This document shows positions 51,706 through 60,874 of a DNA stretch of 64,000 nt, in pieces. The DNA is from Reichenbachiella agarivorans (GTDB lineage: Bacteria; Bacteroidota; Bacteroidia; Cytophagales; Cyclobacteriaceae). The stretch spans positions 2,821,501-2,885,500 of the forward strand of contig NZ_CP106679.1 of the NCBI RefSeq assembly GCF_025502585.1, read 5' to 3'. Both the position numbers and the translations under genes were made by a program. Under the pieces are notes generated by a model. It saw nothing but the letters and a program-made list of their open reading frames with translations, did not search any database and was not told where the DNA came from. The number at the start of each line of letters is the position of its first letter. The stretch's first letter is position 1.

Positions 51706-52332
51706 ATGATCAGAAAATCAAAAAGTAGAAGCAAGCAAGCCAATCAGCTTAATCACCTGAAAAACATCATCACGTTTAGCAACTTGATGAAGGAATCTGA
51801 TGCCAATATAGTGTATTTGGGTAAAGTGACTCAGTCAACCATAGATGGGATCACCGATATGATGGAAGAGAGCATGATCGATCGTCAGGAAAGTAAGCAG
51901 ACGACCAAGCGTGTCTATCACGTGATGATCGAAGCACTACAAAATATATGCAAGCATGCCGATAGCACGGCTGAATACGCGTCCAACAGTTTGGAACAGG
52001 GCTTAGCCAAGGACGGTATTTTCCTTATTGGTCACAATGAAGAAGAATATTACGTCACTACGGGTAACCAAATCACTACTGAAAACACGATTCGCCTCAG
52101 AGATACACTGGATAAGATCAACGCACTGGATAAAGAGGGTTTGCGAGAGATGCACAAACAAGCCATGGCGCAAGGTGATATCTCTAATGTAGGAGGCGCG
52201 GGACTAGGTTTTATCGACATCAAGAAAAAAACAGGGACGGAGTATGAGTACTATTTTGATCCCGTGAGCGCAGATCACTGCTACTTTATTCTCACCATCA
52301 GAATCCTCAAAGAAGACGTAAAGGATTTTTAA
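51706..52332 (+). CDS. siaB: SiaB-family protein kinase
   Basis: A 208-residue protein with a GHKL-like kinase fold and no transmitter or membrane part. The ATP-binding N box is VMIEALQNICKHAD near residues 73-86, and the G2-like glycine loop is SNVGGAGLGFIDIKKK near 160-175. This is the SiaB (DUF6272) layout. SiaB of Pseudomonas aeruginosa phosphorylates the regulator SiaC (family knowledge). The next gene, 158 bases on, is SiaC-like. It heads the signalling cluster; no SiaD-type diguanylate cyclase is present. Confidence 0.87.
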   Translation: MIRKSKSRSKQANQLNHLKNIITFSNLMKESDANIVYLGKVTQSTIDGITDMMEESMIDRQESKQTTKRVYHVMIEALQNICKHADSTAEYASNSLEQGLAKDGIFLIGHNEEEYYVTTGNQITTENTIRLRDTLDKINALDKEGLREMHKQAMAQGDISNVGGAGLGFIDIKKKTGTEYEYYFDPVSADHCYFILTIRILKEDVKDF

Positions 52333-52490: not shown

Positions 52491-52895
52491 ATGGATGGAT
52501 ATTTCATTAGAGCTACAGGTTCTACCCCTTCAATAGAATTTAATCCTGCAAAAGGACTTCTGGAGATTACAGGGGTGTCAACACCAGATGACCCATTGAG
52601 TTTTTATGGGCATATATTTAGTCTTTTGCATGAATTTGAAAGTGCAAACAAGAAGGAAATCGTAGTGAATTTTGGATTAAAGAATATGACTGGTTCTACC
52701 ACTTATATTTATATTTTGGTCAAAAAATTGATCTCACTACAAAATGATACTAGAAAAGTCGTTTTCAATTGGTACTATGAAAAGAACAATGAAAAAATTC
52801 TTGAAGTAGGCAAAGAGATCAGTCAGCATTATCAGCATCCTTTCAATTACATAGGTGTTTTTAAAATAAAACAGTCTTTGAGGCAAGCGAGCTAA
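52491..52895 (+). CDS. siaC: SiaC-family regulatory phosphoprotein
   Basis: A 134-residue protein of the DUF1987/SiaC family. IRATGSTPSIEFNPAKGLLE near residues 6-25 and ITGVSTPDDPLSFYG are the family start. A Thr/Ser-rich stretch (NMTGSTTYIYI, about 65-75) lies where SiaC of Pseudomonas carries its phosphorylated threonine, so T67, S69 or T70 are candidate sites. An upstream ATG at 52452 would add 13 residues without similarity. SiaC normally activates the diguanylate cyclase SiaD when unphosphorylated; that partner is absent here. Confidence 0.86.
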   Translation: MDGYFIRATGSTPSIEFNPAKGLLEITGVSTPDDPLSFYGHIFSLLHEFESANKKEIVVNFGLKNMTGSTTYIYILVKKLISLQNDTRKVVFNWYYEKNNEKILEVGKEISQHYQHPFNYIGVFKIKQSLRQAS

Positions 52896-52959: not shown

Positions 52960-54276
52960 GTGAATAGAAAGAAGTACCTGTCAATTTTTATTATATCTCT
53001 TCTGCTTTGTACAGAAGGGATTGCCCAAAAAATCACCAGTGATGAGCTGAATCAATTACGAGATCAAGCTGCATCTTCTACGGTGTATTTAGTCACTAGT
53101 ATAGTTTTATTGCTTGCACTCATAGTCGGAGCTTTGATTGCTTTCAGCAAATTGAAGAATACCCAAAAGGCACAAGAGGAACTTGACAAGCTCAAGGGGA
53201 TGTACCAAAATCAAATCGATGAGCTGAATGAGGATTTAAAAGATGCCAGAGTTCAGGGCCAAGGTCTCTATCAAAAGCTTCAAGTCCTAAATAATAAGAA
53301 CAAAGAGATTAAAAAGGTGTTCAAAGAAGCCTATGACAAGGTGTTGGCACAGAATGCGGAGTTGAAAGGGAGACTGGGTGATAGCCAAAAAAGTGGCAAC
53401 CAATCCGAACTGGAAAAGATCTACGACAAGTTGGAAGATGCGCAAGCCATGGTGTTGCATTCTGAGAAAATGGCCTCTTTGGGTCAGTTGACTGCCGGCA
53501 TTGCACATGAGATTAACAATCCAGTCAATTTTGTATCCAATGGAGTCAACTCCATCAAAGAGAACTTTGAAAAATACCAATTGTTCATCCAAAACTATCG
53601 CACGATATGTGAGCAACAGACGATAGAGGAGGTCAAGAAACTCTACAAATCGATCCGTGAAGATGACAAAGAATACGAAGAATTAAGAACCCTTACAGAA
53701 GAATCAATCGACGATGTGAGCTATGGTACCAACCGGATCACCGAGATTGTCAATGGATTGAGGATTTTCTCTCGTCAGGACGAGCATGAAGTCAAAGAAG
53801 CCGAAATAGAGACTATTATTGACAATGCATTGCTTATTTTGAAGCCTAAGTACAAAAAGAAGGCAAAGATTCTCAAAGATTATGATCATGGACTCAAAGC
53901 GATCAAATGCCTACCTGGTCAACTGAACCAAGCTCTGGTTAATTTGATTGGAAATGCAGCGGATGCTATAGATTTCAAAGGAACAATTACAATCAGAACC
54001 ATCGATGTAGATGCGGATACTGTGCAGATTCAAGTGCAGGATGATGGCAAGGGTATTCCAGAAGATGTACGCAAGAAAATATTTGATCCATTCTTTACTA
54101 CAAAACCAGTAGGCAAGGGGACTGGTTTGGGCTTGTCCATTACATACAGTATCATTGACAAACATGGAGGGACTATTACTGTAGATAGTACCTTAGGCAA
54201 GGGGACTATTTTTACTGTGACCATTCCCAAAGTGATTAAATTGAAAAAAACCAGAAACGAGAATAAATTCATATAG
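52960..54276 (+). CDS. Membrane sensor histidine kinase
   Basis: A 438-residue kinase. A signal peptide (to about IAQKI) is followed by a membrane segment near 44-62, so the sensor part is only about 20 residues. A long coiled coil (about 65-160) leads to the H box SLGQLTAGIAHEINNPVNF near 171-189. The HATPase domain has NLIGNAADAIDF (N), DDGKGIPEDV (G1), FDPFFTTKPVGKGTGLGLS (F/G2). GTG at 52960 is the start because the signal peptide follows immediately. It is three bases from the response regulator gene, so the two form a pair. Confidence 0.9.
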   Translation: MNRKKYLSIFIISLLLCTEGIAQKITSDELNQLRDQAASSTVYLVTSIVLLLALIVGALIAFSKLKNTQKAQEELDKLKGMYQNQIDELNEDLKDARVQGQGLYQKLQVLNNKNKEIKKVFKEAYDKVLAQNAELKGRLGDSQKSGNQSELEKIYDKLEDAQAMVLHSEKMASLGQLTAGIAHEINNPVNFVSNGVNSIKENFEKYQLFIQNYRTICEQQTIEEVKKLYKSIREDDKEYEELRTLTEESIDDVSYGTNRITEIVNGLRIFSRQDEHEVKEAEIETIIDNALLILKPKYKKKAKILKDYDHGLKAIKCLPGQLNQALVNLIGNAADAIDFKGTITIRTIDVDADTVQIQVQDDGKGIPEDVRKKIFDPFFTTKPVGKGTGLGLSITYSIIDKHGGTITVDSTLGKGTIFTVTIPKVIKLKKTRNENKFI

Positions 54277-54279
54277 ACT

Positions 54280-55560
54280 GTGGAAGACTTGCTAAACCGA
54301 TCATATAAAACCGAAGTTGAAAAAAAGTACACTGTATTGTATGTGGATGATGAAGAAGTGAATCTTCGCGTCTTTAATAGGAATTTTAGCAAGTTTTATC
54401 ATGTATTGACAGCTATAGATGCTTTTGAGGCACAGACGATTTTGTCTCAAAATGAAGTAGACTTGATCATCACCGATCAATGTATGCCTCGGATGAATGG
54501 CTCGGAATTGTTGCTCAAAATAGTGCCACTCTACCCTGATATTATTCGTATGATCATGACTGGTTTTAGTGATGAAAATGATATCAGTGAAGTGAAGCAA
54601 AAAGTGGGGCTTCATAAATTTTTGAAAAAGCCATGGGATCCTGCACAGTTGCAGAAGGAATTTGACCATGCTTTTGTGCAACGTGAAGACCTGATTATCG
54701 AGAGACGTTTGGCCAAAGCACCTAAAAGAGTAATTCCACGCAAAGAAGAGAATTTGGATTTGCTGGAATCTACCATGTCACTGGTCGAAACGAGTGAGAC
54801 CAAACAGCTCAAAAAGGACATTAACAACCTGGTCAAAGAATCAAAGACTAAAAAGGCTGAATTCATGGATGGAGGAATCAATTTTCTTCAAAATTTGAAA
54901 GACGCCATGTTGCCTATTCAGCAGGAGTTGAAACTGTACACGGAGGATGCATTCATCGTGTATGACAAAAACCGAGTCAATCAAAATGGTTATTGGTTTG
55001 GAGAGACCAATGATTGTCTGGTAATCGCTTCGTTTCATTCCAATACCCATACTAGAGAATCTTTGGCACTCAACTCTTTTGTCAGCGCTATGTTGACAGA
55101 GATAGTTTACAAAGAAAAACGTACGAAAACCCATGAAATTCTCAACAGGCTTTCCACCAAAATTCACGTGAGATTTTTGGACAAGAGCAATGAGAGCTCA
55201 TGTCCACTGGAAATTGCCGTGTTGGTATATGACCGTGCTACAGACAAAGTATCACATTCGGGCGCTTATCACAATGCCTTTTTTCTCAATGAGAGAAATG
55301 ATTTTAAAACCTTGGTAGGCAATCAAGAAGTAATTGTACCAGGCAAGGACATGCAGTTTGATATCAATGCCGTCAATGTAGAGAACATCAAAGCTCTATA
55401 CATAGTACCTTTCAATATTCTAGAGGAAACCAATGACAACCGTGGAGATTCTGAGGCTTTGAGACTATTGTTGGAAGAGATGAGAAAGGTTCCTTTTGGA
55501 ATGCAGGCAAAAATGTTTGAAGAATATGGGTATAGGAGTGTGATTGCTCTTAAACTCTGA
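54280..55560 (+). CDS. Response regulator with degenerate SpoIIE/PP2C-like output domain
   Basis: A 426-residue protein. The receiver (about 15-130) is complete: D23/D24, phospho-acceptor D66 in IITDQCMP, T94 and K116/K117. A helical linker (about 135-200) leads to a C-terminal half aligning by pattern with SpoIIE-type PP2C phosphatases (AMLPIQQEL, NGYWFGETND, SHSGAYHNAFFL). Where the fold has its metal-binding aspartates (GDFYW and DxTGHG) this protein has QNGYW and HSNTHT, so catalysis is doubtful. A binding role toward SiaB or SiaC is possible (inference). The start is GTG at 54280. Confidence 0.82.
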   Translation: MEDLLNRSYKTEVEKKYTVLYVDDEEVNLRVFNRNFSKFYHVLTAIDAFEAQTILSQNEVDLIITDQCMPRMNGSELLLKIVPLYPDIIRMIMTGFSDENDISEVKQKVGLHKFLKKPWDPAQLQKEFDHAFVQREDLIIERRLAKAPKRVIPRKEENLDLLESTMSLVETSETKQLKKDINNLVKESKTKKAEFMDGGINFLQNLKDAMLPIQQELKLYTEDAFIVYDKNRVNQNGYWFGETNDCLVIASFHSNTHTRESLALNSFVSAMLTEIVYKEKRTKTHEILNRLSTKIHVRFLDKSNESSCPLEIAVLVYDRATDKVSHSGAYHNAFFLNERNDFKTLVGNQEVIVPGKDMQFDINAVNVENIKALYIVPFNILEETNDNRGDSEALRLLLEEMRKVPFGMQAKMFEEYGYRSVIALKL

Positions 55561-55590: not shown

Positions 55591-56175
55591 ATGCAAGAAA
55601 TCGCAGTACAAGATAAAGCCAACAAAACAAAACTTTCTGAATCAGAAAGAATGAAATTGATCAATGACACTGCCAATGCAGTCAAAGAGGTCAATCAAAT
55701 GGCAGGTGAAAGTAGCACCAAAGAAGCCCATGAAGAAACGATCATGCTGGTTGCTTTTAGTGTGGGAAAAGAGGTTTATGCTGTCTCTATCGACCAGATC
55801 AAGGAGGTTGTTTCCTGTCCAGATATTGCTCCGATTCCACAGGTACCTCCTTTTGTAAAGGGTGTAGCCAATGTGAGAGGCAATGTGTTGGCAATCATAG
55901 ATCTGGCCATACGGTTTGGGTTGGCTCACGAAGGAGAGCAAGGCAGGTTTGTATTGGTAATGAAGAGTGAGGAACTCAAGTTTGCCATCAGTGTAAATGC
56001 AGTGCCTAATACCATGATGATCAAAAGAAGTCAAGTGACACAAGCAACTAACATAATTAACCAATCGACACTAGGGCTTAATTATGTGAAAGGCATCATA
56101 CGCCGAGATGATAACATCGTCGTTTGGGTTGATATATTAAGTTTGATGGAAAACGAGGTTTTTGGAGAGATTTAA
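55591..56175 (+). CDS. cheW: CheW coupling protein with N-terminal extension
   Basis: A 194-residue CheW. The first 48 residues are a charged extension (QDKANKTKLSESERMKLIND). The CheW fold (about 49-190) begins IMLVAFSVGKEVYAVSIDQI and has the arginine-containing PPFVKGVANVRGNVLAIIDL. It links receptors to CheA. It lies 30 bases after the regulator gene and 9 before the receptor gene. Confidence 0.92.
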   Translation: MQEIAVQDKANKTKLSESERMKLINDTANAVKEVNQMAGESSTKEAHEETIMLVAFSVGKEVYAVSIDQIKEVVSCPDIAPIPQVPPFVKGVANVRGNVLAIIDLAIRFGLAHEGEQGRFVLVMKSEELKFAISVNAVPNTMMIKRSQVTQATNIINQSTLGLNYVKGIIRRDDNIVVWVDILSLMENEVFGEI

Positions 56176-56184
56176 AAAGAGTCT

Positions 56185-59127
56185 ATGTTAAGAGATATGA
56201 ACATAAGGAGGAAGATGATCTTTCTCGTATTGGGTGTCGCGATATTAATTTATGCGGTAGCATTGGGGTATGCTGGATACAGCATGCGAGAAAAATCCAT
56301 TCATGATGCCGAGCAGTTAGTCAATTCAGTGGCTATTCAAAAATCTAATGAAATTAAGGCTACTTTGGATGATTACATGTCGTCTATTCGGGCTATGGCT
56401 GTGATTGTTCGTGATTATGTCAATTACCCCACCGAAGAGCGTGTTCGTTTGCAAGAAGATTTATTGTTCAATGTACTCGAAGAGTATGATATATATGAAT
56501 CCACCTGGATGAGTTGGGAATTGAGTGCGATTGATTCGTCTTGGGAGAAAACCTATGGACGAGAGCGTACCACTTGTTATTTAGAGAACGGCGAAAGAAA
56601 GACGACTATCACACAATTGAATCTCGATGGTGATGTGATAGGAGGATTGTACCTGGATACCAAAATCAAACAGAAGGAAACCATTTCGCCACCTTATACT
56701 TATGATGATTATGATGTGAACTCCACCAAAGTAATATTGGGAACATCTCCTATCGTACCTATTCTATCAAAGGATGGAGAATATCTAGGTCAGATTGGTT
56801 CAGATCTTTCGTTGGATGGTTTCAAGAAACTTACGCAATTTGATAGTTTTGATCAAGGGTATACGTTTTTGGCTGCCTATGACGGCACGATTGTTTCGCA
56901 TCCAGACGAAACCTTAATCAATACCAATATTAGTGCGCTGGAGATTAATCAGTCATTAGATTTTAACCTCATAGACAAAGTTCAAGCTGCTGAGTTTGCC
57001 AATTTCACGGTGTATGATAAAGTACTGGGAGACAAAGTTTACGTAGCACTTTCTCCGATTCAGGTAGGGAGGTCAGTGAATCCTTGGCTGGTAGGTACCG
57101 TGGTACCCTATTCAGCAATTACACAATCTTTTAGACAGACATTGACCAATACGATCATAGTTGGGATTATTGGATTGATCATCTTGAGCTACATTGTTTA
57201 CAATTATTCCAATCAGATCACGGTTGCTATTGAGAGAACTCACCGAGTATTGCAGAGTTTGTCAGTTGGCAATTTAGATACAAGCGAGTTAGAGTTGGAT
57301 GAGAAAAACAACGAACTTAGTCAGATGCAGTCATTGATGAACAAGTTGATTTTTGATCTAAGAGACAAAACTAAGTTTGCTCAAGAAATCGGTGAAGGTA
57401 AACTCAATTCAAATTTTACTCCCTCTAGCGAGGATGATGAGCTTGGATTGGCATTGGTCAGAATGAGAGACAATCTCAGTTCGGTACTTGACGATACAAG
57501 GGAGGTGATAGTCCAAGCTGGAGATGAGGGTAAGCTGTCTTCAAGAATCAATGTGGAAGGAAAAGACGGAGCATGGTCTGATCTTGGGGATTCAATTAAT
57601 AGCTTGATAGAGTCCTTCTATATGCCTCTGATGAGATTCAATAGGATTCTGAGTGCTATGTCGACAGGAGATCTCACGATGAGGTATTCGGAGGATGCCA
57701 AGGGGGATATCCAAATAATGGCCAATAATCTCAATCTTGCTTTGGACAACCTAGATGGATTGATTCAGCAGATTGCTTTGAGTGCTGCGATTGTAGATGA
57801 GTCATCGGTAGAGATGAAAGTGTCTAGCGAGGAGATGAGTACCAATACACGAGAAATCGCATCTGCTATTTCTCAAATGAGTCATGGTGCTCAGACACAA
57901 GTATCCAAAGTAGACGAATCATCAAATCTCATCGAAGCAATATTGGCCTCATCCAATGAGATGGGACAGAAAGCTGAGACAATCAATGAAGCAGCGAAAT
58001 CTGGATTGGCCAGTAGTCAGAAGGGTATGGAAATGGTCAATAAGGTTATGTTCAATATGGGAGATATATCGGCATTTTCAAGTCAGACCAATGACTCCAT
58101 CAAGATATTGGCGCAGCGATCAAAAGAGATAGCTAGGGTACTGGGAGTGATTACTGATATTGCTTCTCAAACCAACCTTTTGGCATTGAATGCTGCGATA
58201 GAAGCAGCCCAAGCAGGTGATGCTGGACGTGGATTTGCGGTAGTTGCCGAGGAAATTAGGAAACTAGCAGAGGGCTCTAGAAAATCAGCACAAGAGATTG
58301 AAAAGCTGGTAACTGATGTACAGGCGGATACTCTGGACGCAACTAAGGTCATCGAGATAATGATGACAAGCGTAAAAAGTGGAGAAGAGACTTCCAAAGA
58401 GGCAACCCATGTCTTTAAGGATATTTTGGAAGCATCCAATGCTACTTTGAGTTATTCAGAAGAGATTCTGAATTCTGCCAAAGGACAGACCGATGGCATC
58501 AACAATGTGGTGACGATCATCGAAGGAGTAGTAGTGATCGCAGAGCAAACAGCAGCAGGGACAGAAGAGGTGGCTAGTTCGGCTACTGAGCTTTCGTCCG
58601 GTATGGAGACCTACAATGACAAATCTCAAAAACTGGCAGAGATAGCAGAGAAATTGAAAGAAGGAGTGAGTATGGTCAAGTTGACAGGTGCTGCTAATCA
58701 AAATACTGCTATCTTCAATATGAAAGAGGCCTATGAAAAAGAAAAGTCTTTGCTAGACTCGCTTTTGGATTTTATGCCTGATGCAATTTATTTCAAGGAT
58801 TTGGATAGCAAATTTATCAAGGCTAGTAAGTCCGTAGCAAAGTTGTTTGGAATAGCCGATAGGTCTGAAATGATTGGAAAATCCGATTTTGACTTCTATG
58901 ATAAAGAAGTGGCTGAAAAGTTGTTTCAGAGCGAGCAGGAAATAGTAAAAACAGGTAATGGTATATTAAATGATGTGAGCGAAAATAGATTATCTAATGG
59001 GGAGGTAGTATATTTTTCAAATACAAAAGTACAACTTACCGACAGTGAAGGCAATGTCATTGGCACTATGGGAATATCAAGAGATATTACCGATAAGATG
59101 AAAAGCGAAAGAAGAAGTAATAATTAG
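56185..59127 (+). CDS. Methyl-accepting chemotaxis protein with HAMP chain and C-terminal PAS
   Basis: A 980-residue receptor. Membrane segments are near residues 12-30 and 315-335, enclosing a Cache-like sensor (about 35-310) with SPPYTYDDYDVNSTKVI. Several HAMP-like units follow (about 338-390, 403-440, 445-480, 488-530; for example SAMSTGDLTMRYSED). The signalling hairpin near 652-700 contains ASQTNLLALNAAIEAAQAGD and GFAVVAEEIRKLAE. A PAS domain occupies about 850-975 (DFMPDAIYFKDLDSKFIKAS), after the signalling domain rather than before it. It has no CheR-tethering pentapeptide; the end is SERRSNN. Confidence 0.92.
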   Translation: MLRDMNIRRKMIFLVLGVAILIYAVALGYAGYSMREKSIHDAEQLVNSVAIQKSNEIKATLDDYMSSIRAMAVIVRDYVNYPTEERVRLQEDLLFNVLEEYDIYESTWMSWELSAIDSSWEKTYGRERTTCYLENGERKTTITQLNLDGDVIGGLYLDTKIKQKETISPPYTYDDYDVNSTKVILGTSPIVPILSKDGEYLGQIGSDLSLDGFKKLTQFDSFDQGYTFLAAYDGTIVSHPDETLINTNISALEINQSLDFNLIDKVQAAEFANFTVYDKVLGDKVYVALSPIQVGRSVNPWLVGTVVPYSAITQSFRQTLTNTIIVGIIGLIILSYIVYNYSNQITVAIERTHRVLQSLSVGNLDTSELELDEKNNELSQMQSLMNKLIFDLRDKTKFAQEIGEGKLNSNFTPSSEDDELGLALVRMRDNLSSVLDDTREVIVQAGDEGKLSSRINVEGKDGAWSDLGDSINSLIESFYMPLMRFNRILSAMSTGDLTMRYSEDAKGDIQIMANNLNLALDNLDGLIQQIALSAAIVDESSVEMKVSSEEMSTNTREIASAISQMSHGAQTQVSKVDESSNLIEAILASSNEMGQKAETINEAAKSGLASSQKGMEMVNKVMFNMGDISAFSSQTNDSIKILAQRSKEIARVLGVITDIASQTNLLALNAAIEAAQAGDAGRGFAVVAEEIRKLAEGSRKSAQEIEKLVTDVQADTLDATKVIEIMMTSVKSGEETSKEATHVFKDILEASNATLSYSEEILNSAKGQTDGINNVVTIIEGVVVIAEQTAAGTEEVASSATELSSGMETYNDKSQKLAEIAEKLKEGVSMVKLTGAANQNTAIFNMKEAYEKEKSLLDSLLDFMPDAIYFKDLDSKFIKASKSVAKLFGIADRSEMIGKSDFDFYDKEVAEKLFQSEQEIVKTGNGILNDVSENRLSNGEVVYFSNTKVQLTDSEGNVIGTMGISRDITDKMKSERRSNN

Positions 59128-59130
59128 ACC

Positions 59131-59886
59131 ATGATCATCACAGTTATAAACCAAAAAGGTGGGACAGGAAAGACCACAACATCAGTCAATTTGGGTTGTG
59201 CCTTGGCAGAAGCTAAAAAGAAAGTGTTGATGATAGACCTGGATCCGCAGGGCAACCTTAGCTACTGGCTGGGTATTGGCGAAGTGGACAAAACCATGGC
59301 GGATGTGATGATGCTGGATAATAAGATCACGGATGTGATTGTGAAAAAGGAAGGGGTCTCAATTGCTCCGTCAGATGTGAGTCTGTCAGATGTGGAGATC
59401 AACATCGCCAGCATGAATCAGCGTGAGTCTATTTTAAAAAATGCCCTGAGTGAGGTAGAGTCAGATTATGATTATGTAATCATTGACTGTCCTCCTTCAT
59501 TGTCATTGCTCACAGTCAATGCCTTGACAGCTACAGATAGGGTCATTGTCCCCCTACAGATGGAGGTGTTGAGTTTGCAAGGTTTGGATCAGATCGTAGG
59601 CAGTATAGCACGAATCAAAAGTGTGTTGAATAGCAATTTGGAGATTCTGGGTTTGCTGCCTGTGATGGTAGATCGAAGAAGGAATTTGAGTAGAGAAATC
59701 TACGAATACATAGAAGAGAACTATGACTTAAAGCTATTTGAAAGTAGCATTAGAAGCAACGTTCGCGTGAGTGAAGCTCCATCGTTTGGTGTGAGTGTGA
59801 TGAGCTACTCTCCGAATTCTACAGGAGCTACTGACTACAGAGCCTTTGCCAAAGAGATATTGAAGTTAACCAAGAATAAGAAATAA
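59131..59886 (+). CDS. ParA-family ATPase (array positioning, ParC/PpfA-like)
   Basis: A 251-residue P-loop ATPase. The deviant Walker A is NQKGGTGKTTTSVNLG at residues 7-22; LMIDLDPQGNLSYWLG and DYVIIDCPPSLSLLTVNAL are Walker A' and B. There is no N-terminal DNA-binding extension and no parB follows, so plasmid or chromosome segregation is less likely. Its place between a chemoreceptor and a CheW gene is that of ParC/PpfA proteins, which position chemosensory arrays (inference from context). It is 3 bases from mcp and 4 from the next cheW. Confidence 0.9.
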   Translation: MIITVINQKGGTGKTTTSVNLGCALAEAKKKVLMIDLDPQGNLSYWLGIGEVDKTMADVMMLDNKITDVIVKKEGVSIAPSDVSLSDVEINIASMNQRESILKNALSEVESDYDYVIIDCPPSLSLLTVNALTATDRVIVPLQMEVLSLQGLDQIVGSIARIKSVLNSNLEILGLLPVMVDRRRNLSREIYEYIEENYDLKLFESSIRSNVRVSEAPSFGVSVMSYSPNSTGATDYRAFAKEILKLTKNKK

Positions 59887-59890
59887 GAAC

Positions 59891-60874
59891 ATGCCACTAG
59901 GAAAGAATTTGAAAAAGGATACTTTGATACCTACTGAAAAGAAGGAGAAAGAACCTGTGGCTAAGAAAACCATCGTTAGCCAAGCGAAGAAAAAACCAGC
60001 GAAGAAGGTAGAGAAACCTAAGGCCGAAAAAATCACGAAGGCAAGTCCTCCGAAAAAGGTCGCGCAAAAAAAATCGCAACCCAAAACTGAGCCCAAAAAG
60101 GTAGTAGCCATAGAAAAAAAGCAGGAATTGAAATCTGTTTCTCTTCCAACACCAAATGAATTGGAAGAGAAACAGCTATCAGCAACTGCTATAAACGAGA
60201 TAGATCAAGTCGAAGATGCCGAGTCGATTGATACCGATGAGGTGCCAGCAGTGATTTTACCTACTGAGAGACAGCATGTCACCGCACCAAAGGCACAAGC
60301 ACAAGAATTGCTTAGAAAGAAAATAGGGACAGTAAAATACCTAACAGAAGAAGAATATCAGGAAAAGAAGCGACTCAAAGAGAAATTTGACCAAGAAATC
60401 AAAGCATATGCAGGCAAGGATGTCCAATTAATTGTATTCAAAATGGGTCAAGAACGCTATGCTATTGAAATTGACCGTGTCAGAGAAGTGGTACACACAC
60501 CTAGAATTTCTAAAATCCCTCATGCACCTAATTTTATCAAGGGTGTCAGCAATGTGAGAGGGTCTGTGATGGTTGTGTTAGACTTAGGGTTAAAGTTTGG
60601 AATAGATAATCAAGAAGAATCCAAAGAATTCATCTTGGTGATTCACCATGATGAATTCAAAGCAGGAATTCTAGTCAATGAGGTTCCTTTGACCGTCAAA
60701 GTAGCAGGAGATAACATTGTGAGTTCTGCTGGTATATTAAGAAATACTTCCCTAGATGAGACTTATATCAAAGGAATAATAAAGACAGATGAGGATATGA
60801 TCATATTTATTGATATAGCAGAGCTCATCCAAGAAGACGAAGTAAGTATCATTTCCCAATCAATACTTGGGTAA
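59891..60874 (+). CDS. CheW-domain protein with long Lys/Pro-rich N-terminus (ParP-like)
   Basis: A 327-residue protein. Residues 1-85 are extremely rich in Lys, Ala and Pro (for example KKPAKKVEKPKAEKITK), 85-170 are acidic and then helical, and 177-320 form a CheW fold starting VQLIVFKMGQERYAIEIDRV with PNFIKGVSNVRGSVMVVLDL. The layout (disordered region, then CheW-like domain, directly after a parA) is that of ParP in Vibrio, which links ParC to the array. The lysine-rich tail could alternatively bind DNA or the ParA partner. Confidence 0.85.
   Translation: MPLGKNLKKDTLIPTEKKEKEPVAKKTIVSQAKKKPAKKVEKPKAEKITKASPPKKVAQKKSQPKTEPKKVVAIEKKQELKSVSLPTPNELEEKQLSATAINEIDQVEDAESIDTDEVPAVILPTERQHVTAPKAQAQELLRKKIGTVKYLTEEEYQEKKRLKEKFDQEIKAYAGKDVQLIVFKMGQERYAIEIDRVREVVHTPRISKIPHAPNFIKGVSNVRGSVMVVLDLGLKFGIDNQEESKEFILVIHHDEFKAGILVNEVPLTVKVAGDNIVSSAGILRNTSLDETYIKGIIKTDEDMIIFIDIAELIQEDEVSIISQSILG

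Follow-up and report, generated by a model that had tools for sequence, protein, structure and literature searches.

Reichenbachiella is a group of marine bacteria. In the window, the 64,000-nucleotide stretch of the Reichenbachiella agarivorans genome analyzed here (assembly GCF_025502585.1, contig NZ_CP106679.1, positions 2,821,501 to 2,885,500), siaB and siaC are followed by a response regulator (RR) gene whose product carries a C-terminal domain with altered phosphatase motifs. This locus raises the questions of whether the domain descends from a SiaA-type phosphatase, whether it could still act as one, and what such a regulator might do beside SiaB and SiaC. The features concerned are listed in Table 1.

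Table 1. Features of the operon, with coordinates counted from the first nucleotide of the window
Feature	Coordinates	Strand	Remarks
SiaB-family kinase (DUF6272)	51706..52332	+	NCBIfam SiaB_fam_kinase 4.6e-41; EALQN N-box and GGAGLGF motif kept
SiaC-like protein	52491..52895	+	134 aa; ATG at 52491 is the start shared by orthologs; Pfam SiaC 5.8e-26; N-T-S triad changed to (M)-TGS
Membrane-anchored histidine kinase, HisKA + HATPase_c	52960..54276	+	3 bp upstream of the RR gene; 8/8 genomes
RR with degenerate SiaA-type PP2C domain	54280..55560	+	426 aa, GTG start
Receiver domain, residues 19-127	54334..54660	+	Pfam 4.2e-18; D23, D24, D66, T94, and K117 kept
Putative pseudo-PP2C (SpoIIE/SiaA-type) domain, residues 199-426	54874..55557	+	Profile homology, ligand alignment
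CheW, next gene in the operon	55591..56175	+	Pfam; 8/8 genomes
MCP chemoreceptor (dCache, MCPsignal, PAS)	56185..59127	+	Family matches

Receiver and C-terminal domain of the response regulator

The R. agariperforans ortholog (L048) shares the GTG start with the window RR and is 75% identical to it; being 99.8% identical to the protein from another genome (G148), it was not taken as a ninth ortholog. The receiver matched Pfam Response_reg and, as the earlier note had claimed, contained the acidic pair, the phospho-acceptor Asp, the Thr/Ser, and the Lys. These five residues were intact in the window-type orthologs from all eight Reichenbachiella genomes searched and in all 24 proteins of the window type and of the par and intact types described below.

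Pfam SpoIIE (PF07228), the profile by which the earlier note had proposed to check the C-terminal domain, gave no match to the window RR at E≤1, and the receiver was the sole Pfam domain above the cut-off. The intact RR-PP2C paralog scored 64 bits against the same profile. Since Pfam SpoIIE misses the window domain, homology had to rest on profile comparisons. By hhalign, the eight window-type domains were aligned with 50 SpoIIE domains from outside Reichenbachiella over 219 columns with a probability of 99.8 and an E-value of 4.6e-30, and the control profiles (SiaC, SiaB, kinase, and receiver) all remained below 1. The 50 comparison domains, including a few duplicates, were picked among the fetched loci by the motif GD-[FYCV]-[YF] and are thus active-looking by selection. 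Outside the genus, the window domain alone matched SpoIIE-type proteins in a search of 148 family genomes (up to 1.3e-15), and a profile built from seven domains, four of the window type and three of the par type, gave matches up to 1.7e-29 in 341 genomes of the order. Among 177,635 PDB sequences, the best match of the seven-domain profile was SiaA-PP2C (6k4e; E 0.0017); at E≤10, a DCP1 fragment was the only other match and RssB was not found. NCBIfam SiaA (NF038263) was absent for the window RR among the best 25 of 63 families, which reach down to 4.4e-06. The match to DCP1, an mRNA-decapping protein, spanned 50 residues around NGYWFG (Pfam 0.0026, PDB 0.054) and was rejected as chance because it lay below the Pfam cut-off and covered about one-fifth of a domain that aligns almost end to end with SpoIIE.

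An AlphaFold2 model of the full-length RR, built with one ortholog, was poor (mean pLDDT 33.5) and was set aside. The domain alone gave a mean pLDDT of 48.5, with block means of 42-77 for residues 1-140 and below 40 thereafter. With this low-confidence model, Foldseek returned 3f79 as the best match at an E-value of 0.083, which is not significant, and VIA gave Z-scores of 8.1 for RssB and 7.0 for SiaA that were tied with unrelated entries. The profile comparisons argue that the C-terminal half is, by homology, a PP2C domain, and the SpoIIE/PP2C ancestry proposed earlier was borne out by the hhalign and PDB matches.

Metal site of the window-type domain and its relatives

The metal site of SiaA is described as D457, D474, G477, D600, G601, and D653, with D534 and D604 for the third metal (PMC7647112). 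Aligned with these positions, the window RR has N236 at D457, H253 at D474, T256 at G477, E311 at D534, F378 at D600, N379 at G601, and Y418 at D653; the last assignment depends on the alignment, because the C-terminus is shortened by about 11 residues, which include the DD motif. The eight window-type proteins have Asn at 457, His, Phe, or Asn at 474, Thr or Ser at 477, Glu or Asp at 534, Phe, Val, Asn, or Lys at 600, Asn at 601, Glu, Asp, or Lys at 604, and Tyr at 653. D457, D474, D600, and D653 are thus replaced in all of them, and the eight intact paralogs of the same genomes keep every SiaA site residue. The motifs pointed out earlier, QNGYW where active phosphatases have GDFYW and HSNTHT where they have DCTGHG, were found at the claimed positions. 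The loss proved wider than had been claimed: it extends to all eight orthologs, and it includes the DD motif at the C-terminus and the Asp that serves as fourth ligand, where SDG has become PFN. A PP2C domain that cannot hold the catalytic metals would be a pseudophosphatase, and we infer from the replaced ligands that the window domain is inactive.

The window, par, and intact types were each found in all eight Reichenbachiella genomes searched. At E≤1e-35, the window/par profile retrieved, out of 295 family genomes, just these eight and, out of 395 class genomes, only the window's own; the type looks confined to Reichenbachiella within this sample. In comparison with the G148 ortholog, the window RR gave a pN of 0.16 and a pS of 0.72, and pN was far below pS in the closest pairs; a dN/dS ratio is left unquoted because dS is near or at saturation. 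The presence in 8/8 genomes and a non-synonymous divergence far below the synonymous one suggest that the metal-site loss is neither chance nor the decay of a single strain. If the receiver worked and the C-terminal domain were a functionless, decaying remnant, its faster divergence (mean identity 0.52 in the window type vs 0.74 in the intact paralogs) would be explained; however, the gene is full length in the same operon in every genome, pN lies far below pS, and 42 of 221 domain columns are invariant, and we regard decay as the least credible of the readings considered. An enzyme that still works through an unusual site, with another metal or substrate, might account for the fixation of N236, N379, and Y418 in 8/8 window-type proteins, as expected of a reshaped pocket. 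Against such residual activity stand the replacement of all four aspartates in every ortholog and the free variation at two of these positions (H/N/F and F/V/N/K), and we consider it very improbable.

The intact paralog (L042 5655-6941) matched NCBIfam SiaA over its PP2C part (5.8e-56; 190 bits, below the 700-bit cut-off) and SiaA-PP2C 6k4e (1.7e-37). It is preceded in 8/8 genomes by siaB, a gene for a membrane coiled-coil protein of 181-190 aa, and its own kinase. Membrane coiled-coil proteins of 171-182 aa, without a convincing Pfam family, are also encoded beside siaB or siaBC in several genera (L042 3149-3697, L177, and L178). In another genus (G042, locus L180), siaB, siaC, a kinase gene, and an RR-PP2C gene occur in the same order as in the window with all motifs intact, and the PP2C domain of G042 (spo_L028 in the tree) clusters with the intact paralogs (support 98/96). 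Twenty siaB surroundings in other genera, hand-picked from 66 matches listed, were inspected: 14 had a SpoIIE protein of 1121-1199 aa followed by siaB and siaC, one had a short PP2C gene before siaB and siaC, one was L180, and four had no PP2C gene adjoining siaB. A live-looking PP2C adjoining siaB is the usual state in this sample of 20, from which the window operon departs. The earlier expectation of a SiaA-type phosphatase at the position of the window RR was upheld by the SiaA-like intact paralog and by L180, which has the same order with a live site.

The par type is a second dead RR-PP2C (L035 7640-8779, which is C1:3339639-3340778 of the window's own genome; L036, L037, and L153-L157). 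It consists of about 380 aa and follows a kinase of about 900 aa (TPR-bearing in L035, the sole one scanned), without siaBC beside it, in 8/8 genomes. Its metal site is lost, but D534 is kept in 8/8 proteins and D474 in one. The window and par types group together as a clade (support 100/99), and their metal site may have been lost once, ahead of the duplication that separated them. RR-PP2C proteins from two genomes of another genus of the family (L043 8749-9918, minus strand, and L044 14705-15859) lack D457, D534, and D600 and keep D474 and D653; this partial site is perhaps an intermediate or an independent loss. A loss common to them and the window type is not claimed, since the tree joins them weakly (78/45) with a long-branch warning.

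Operon and SiaC phosphosite

The gene order given earlier was right, with one kinase gene separating siaC from the window RR gene, and the run siaB-siaC-histidine kinase-RR-cheW-MCP is kept in 8/8 Reichenbachiella genomes. In the window, genes for a ParA-like ATPase, CheW, CheB, and CheA follow the MCP gene, this CheW being the second of the operon. Beyond the window end, the run goes on with a weak match to CheX, then CheR and a stand-alone receiver; the operon lacks siaD. The CheX-like protein (L047 244-879, just 3′ of the window, between CheA and CheR) has 211 aa and matched at 0.00018, below the cut-off. The ParA-like ATPase and the second CheW, which has a long Lys/Pro-rich N-terminal extension (59131-60874, between MCP and cheB), are reminiscent of ParC/ParP array-positioning pairs. 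Three of the eight genomes (L144, L145, and L038) have a second MCP gene instead of the ParA-cheW2-cheB run, and the same three have Glu at the SiaC Thr site.

In Pseudomonas, T68 of SiaC is phosphorylated by SiaB and dephosphorylated by SiaA (PMC7647112). N67, T68, and S69 contribute to the surface that binds SiaD, and binding fails when all three are changed to alanine (PMC8457831). The SiaC encoded beside the window RR scored 91 bits against the SiaC family (PF09345; cut-off 24.5). The eight operon SiaCs were aligned with 22 others, namely the three SiaC paralogs encoded elsewhere in the window genome plus 19 from the 20 siaB surroundings, in which SiaC frames were taken at E≤1e-6 and two loci yielded none. 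All 22 of these others had FNT[SA]SS, with either Ser or Ala at position 69. The N67-T68-S69 triad was lost in all eight window-type SiaCs, the Asn by a one-residue deletion: five read M-TGST, and the other three read I-EDS, with Glu at the position of the phosphorylated Thr. The change of the SiaC triad beside a dead phosphatase is a new finding of this analysis: both co-occur in one lineage, and the joint change is to be counted as one evolutionary event or a few, not as eight independent ones. It suggests that canonical phospho-SiaC may be absent from the window module. Since the phosphosite itself is changed, the idea put forward in the earlier note, that the RR binds SiaC or SiaB instead of dephosphorylating it, may understate the change; the altered site makes the idea more specific, and binding appears plausible.

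The window genome encodes three other SiaCs with a canonical site and four SpoIIE-domain proteins over the Pfam cut-off. The sole GGDEF match in this genome (C1:4159971-4160438; L160 4945-5703, minus strand) is a protein of 252 aa encoded far from the operon. It has a SiaD-like size, scored 89.5 bits against NCBIfam SiaD, below the cut-off of 290, and is a possible target of the canonical SiaCs.

Proposed mechanism and known systems

The reading that we propose, to which we give an even chance, is that the window RR is a SiaA-derived pseudophosphatase whose binding is gated by phosphorylation, with SiaC or SiaB as the most likely partner and output to the chemosensory genes. The membrane histidine kinase encoded directly upstream, presumably paired with this RR, would phosphorylate D66. 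The PP2C domain would descend from a SiaA-type Ser/Thr phosphatase unable by now to hold the catalytic metals, and phosphorylation would alter the packing of the two domains and expose or hide a face for protein binding. SiaC from the same operon, alone or paired with SiaB, would be the likeliest ligand, in view of the accompanying change at N67-T68-S69. The drive of the partner switch would move from Thr phosphorylation to Asp phosphorylation, an enzyme-based switch probably having turned into a binding-based one, and the output would probably feed the adjacent chemosensory genes. In a more detailed version, which we put forward tentatively as possible but doubtful, the loss of the phosphatase went together with that of the phospho-acceptor site in its substrate, and a pseudophosphatase scaffold phosphorylated on Asp holds or releases SiaC and is wired to the chemosensory array.

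The par pair counts against SiaC as the partner: it is kept in 8/8 genomes without adjoining siaB or siaC, which implies that the pseudo-domain has a use independent of an adjacent SiaC. The ATP-site and kinase motifs kept by SiaB in the window-type operons also sit oddly with a SiaC that is never phosphorylated. A Thr aligned with T68 in five of the eight SiaCs and other Ser/Thr residues nearby in all eight, together with these SiaB motifs, leave room for phosphorylation of SiaC, there or elsewhere. The conserved par paralog, the lost switch site of SiaC, and the cheW and MCP genes after the window RR gene in every genome would also be expected if the pseudophosphatase partnered the chemosensory machinery (CheW, MCP, or CheA) and siaBC were leftover neighbors from an ancestral operon. 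However, SiaB and SiaC of the window share 88-94% identity with those of the three nearest genomes (G068, G148, and G151), which argues that they are no decaying leftovers, and the chemosensory genes beyond the MCP gene differ in three of the eight genomes; we consider this explanation rather unlikely. The canonical SiaCs and SpoIIE-domain proteins elsewhere in the genome would allow the window RR to act as a competitor or anchor that binds the phospho-SiaC of the three paralogs without dephosphorylating it and tunes live phosphatases. This appears improbable: the substrate-facing pocket is widely changed, all window-type proteins keep only 8 of the 118 columns that do not vary among the intact paralogs, and synteny favors the adjacent SiaC.

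The pseudophosphatase reading with SiaC or SiaB as partner can be set beside several known systems. Pseudoenzymes are well described in eukaryotic signaling; to our knowledge, few PP2C pseudophosphatases of bacteria can be traced to a clear ancestor. The open-licence literature searched yielded nothing on SpoIIE-type pseudophosphatase RRs, Bacteroidetes RR-PP2C partner switches, or DUF1987 with SpoIIE; on chemotaxis in Reichenbachiella, it listed two papers, both about epiphytic communities. The intact paralog of the same genomes and L180 of another genus likewise combine a receiver with a SiaA-type PP2C domain, with a kinase directly upstream and siaB in the operon; unlike the window RR, the paralog keeps all ligands and L180 keeps the motifs, and in the paralog's operon the membrane coiled-coil gene stands in the place of siaC. 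SiaA of Pseudomonas aeruginosa is an active phosphatase with all ligands (PMC7647112). The window RR belongs to the same PP2C subfamily and its gene lies beside those of SiaB and SiaC, as in SiaABCD; unlike in that system, the site would be dead judging from its residues, a receiver, with its kinase encoded separately, makes up the sensor part, the N-T-S triad is missing from SiaC, and the operon has no siaD. HsbR/CrsR and P. aeruginosa RssB are described as active receiver-PP2C phosphatases on an anti-anti-sigma-type partner (PMC6482189, PMC12143880). They resemble the window RR in joining a receiver to a PP2C domain and, on the proposed reading, in receiver control and the type of partner, and differ from it in being active and, for HsbR, in carrying the kinase domain in cis.

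The likeness in mechanism is to RssB of Escherichia coli, the adaptor that delivers sigma-S to ClpXP and the one bacterial PP2C pseudophosphatase met in the open-licence literature. It consists of a receiver and a PP2C fold without active-site residues and with a shortened C-terminus, and works through protein binding that its receiver controls (PMC7226468, PMC12143880). The window RR likewise joins a receiver to a PP2C-derived domain without ligands and with a shortened C-terminus, and is predicted to be inactive. Unlike E. coli RssB, its C-terminal domain has SiaA as its sequence kin, without detected kinship to RssB in the PDB profile search, and its gene sits with that of its own kinase, with siaB and siaC, and with chemotaxis genes. 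The resemblance would be mechanistic; by sequence, the window RR falls on the SiaA branch and would be a case apart. The same genomes still encode the live ancestor type, the dead copy has become fixed in the genus, and the phosphosite of the substrate is changed, and the steps from enzyme to adaptor are thus testable with the proteins of one organism. If the more detailed version holds, the window RR would have arisen from the SiaA type independently of its E. coli counterpart RssB and would offer a natural experiment on the turning of an enzymatic switch into a binding one.
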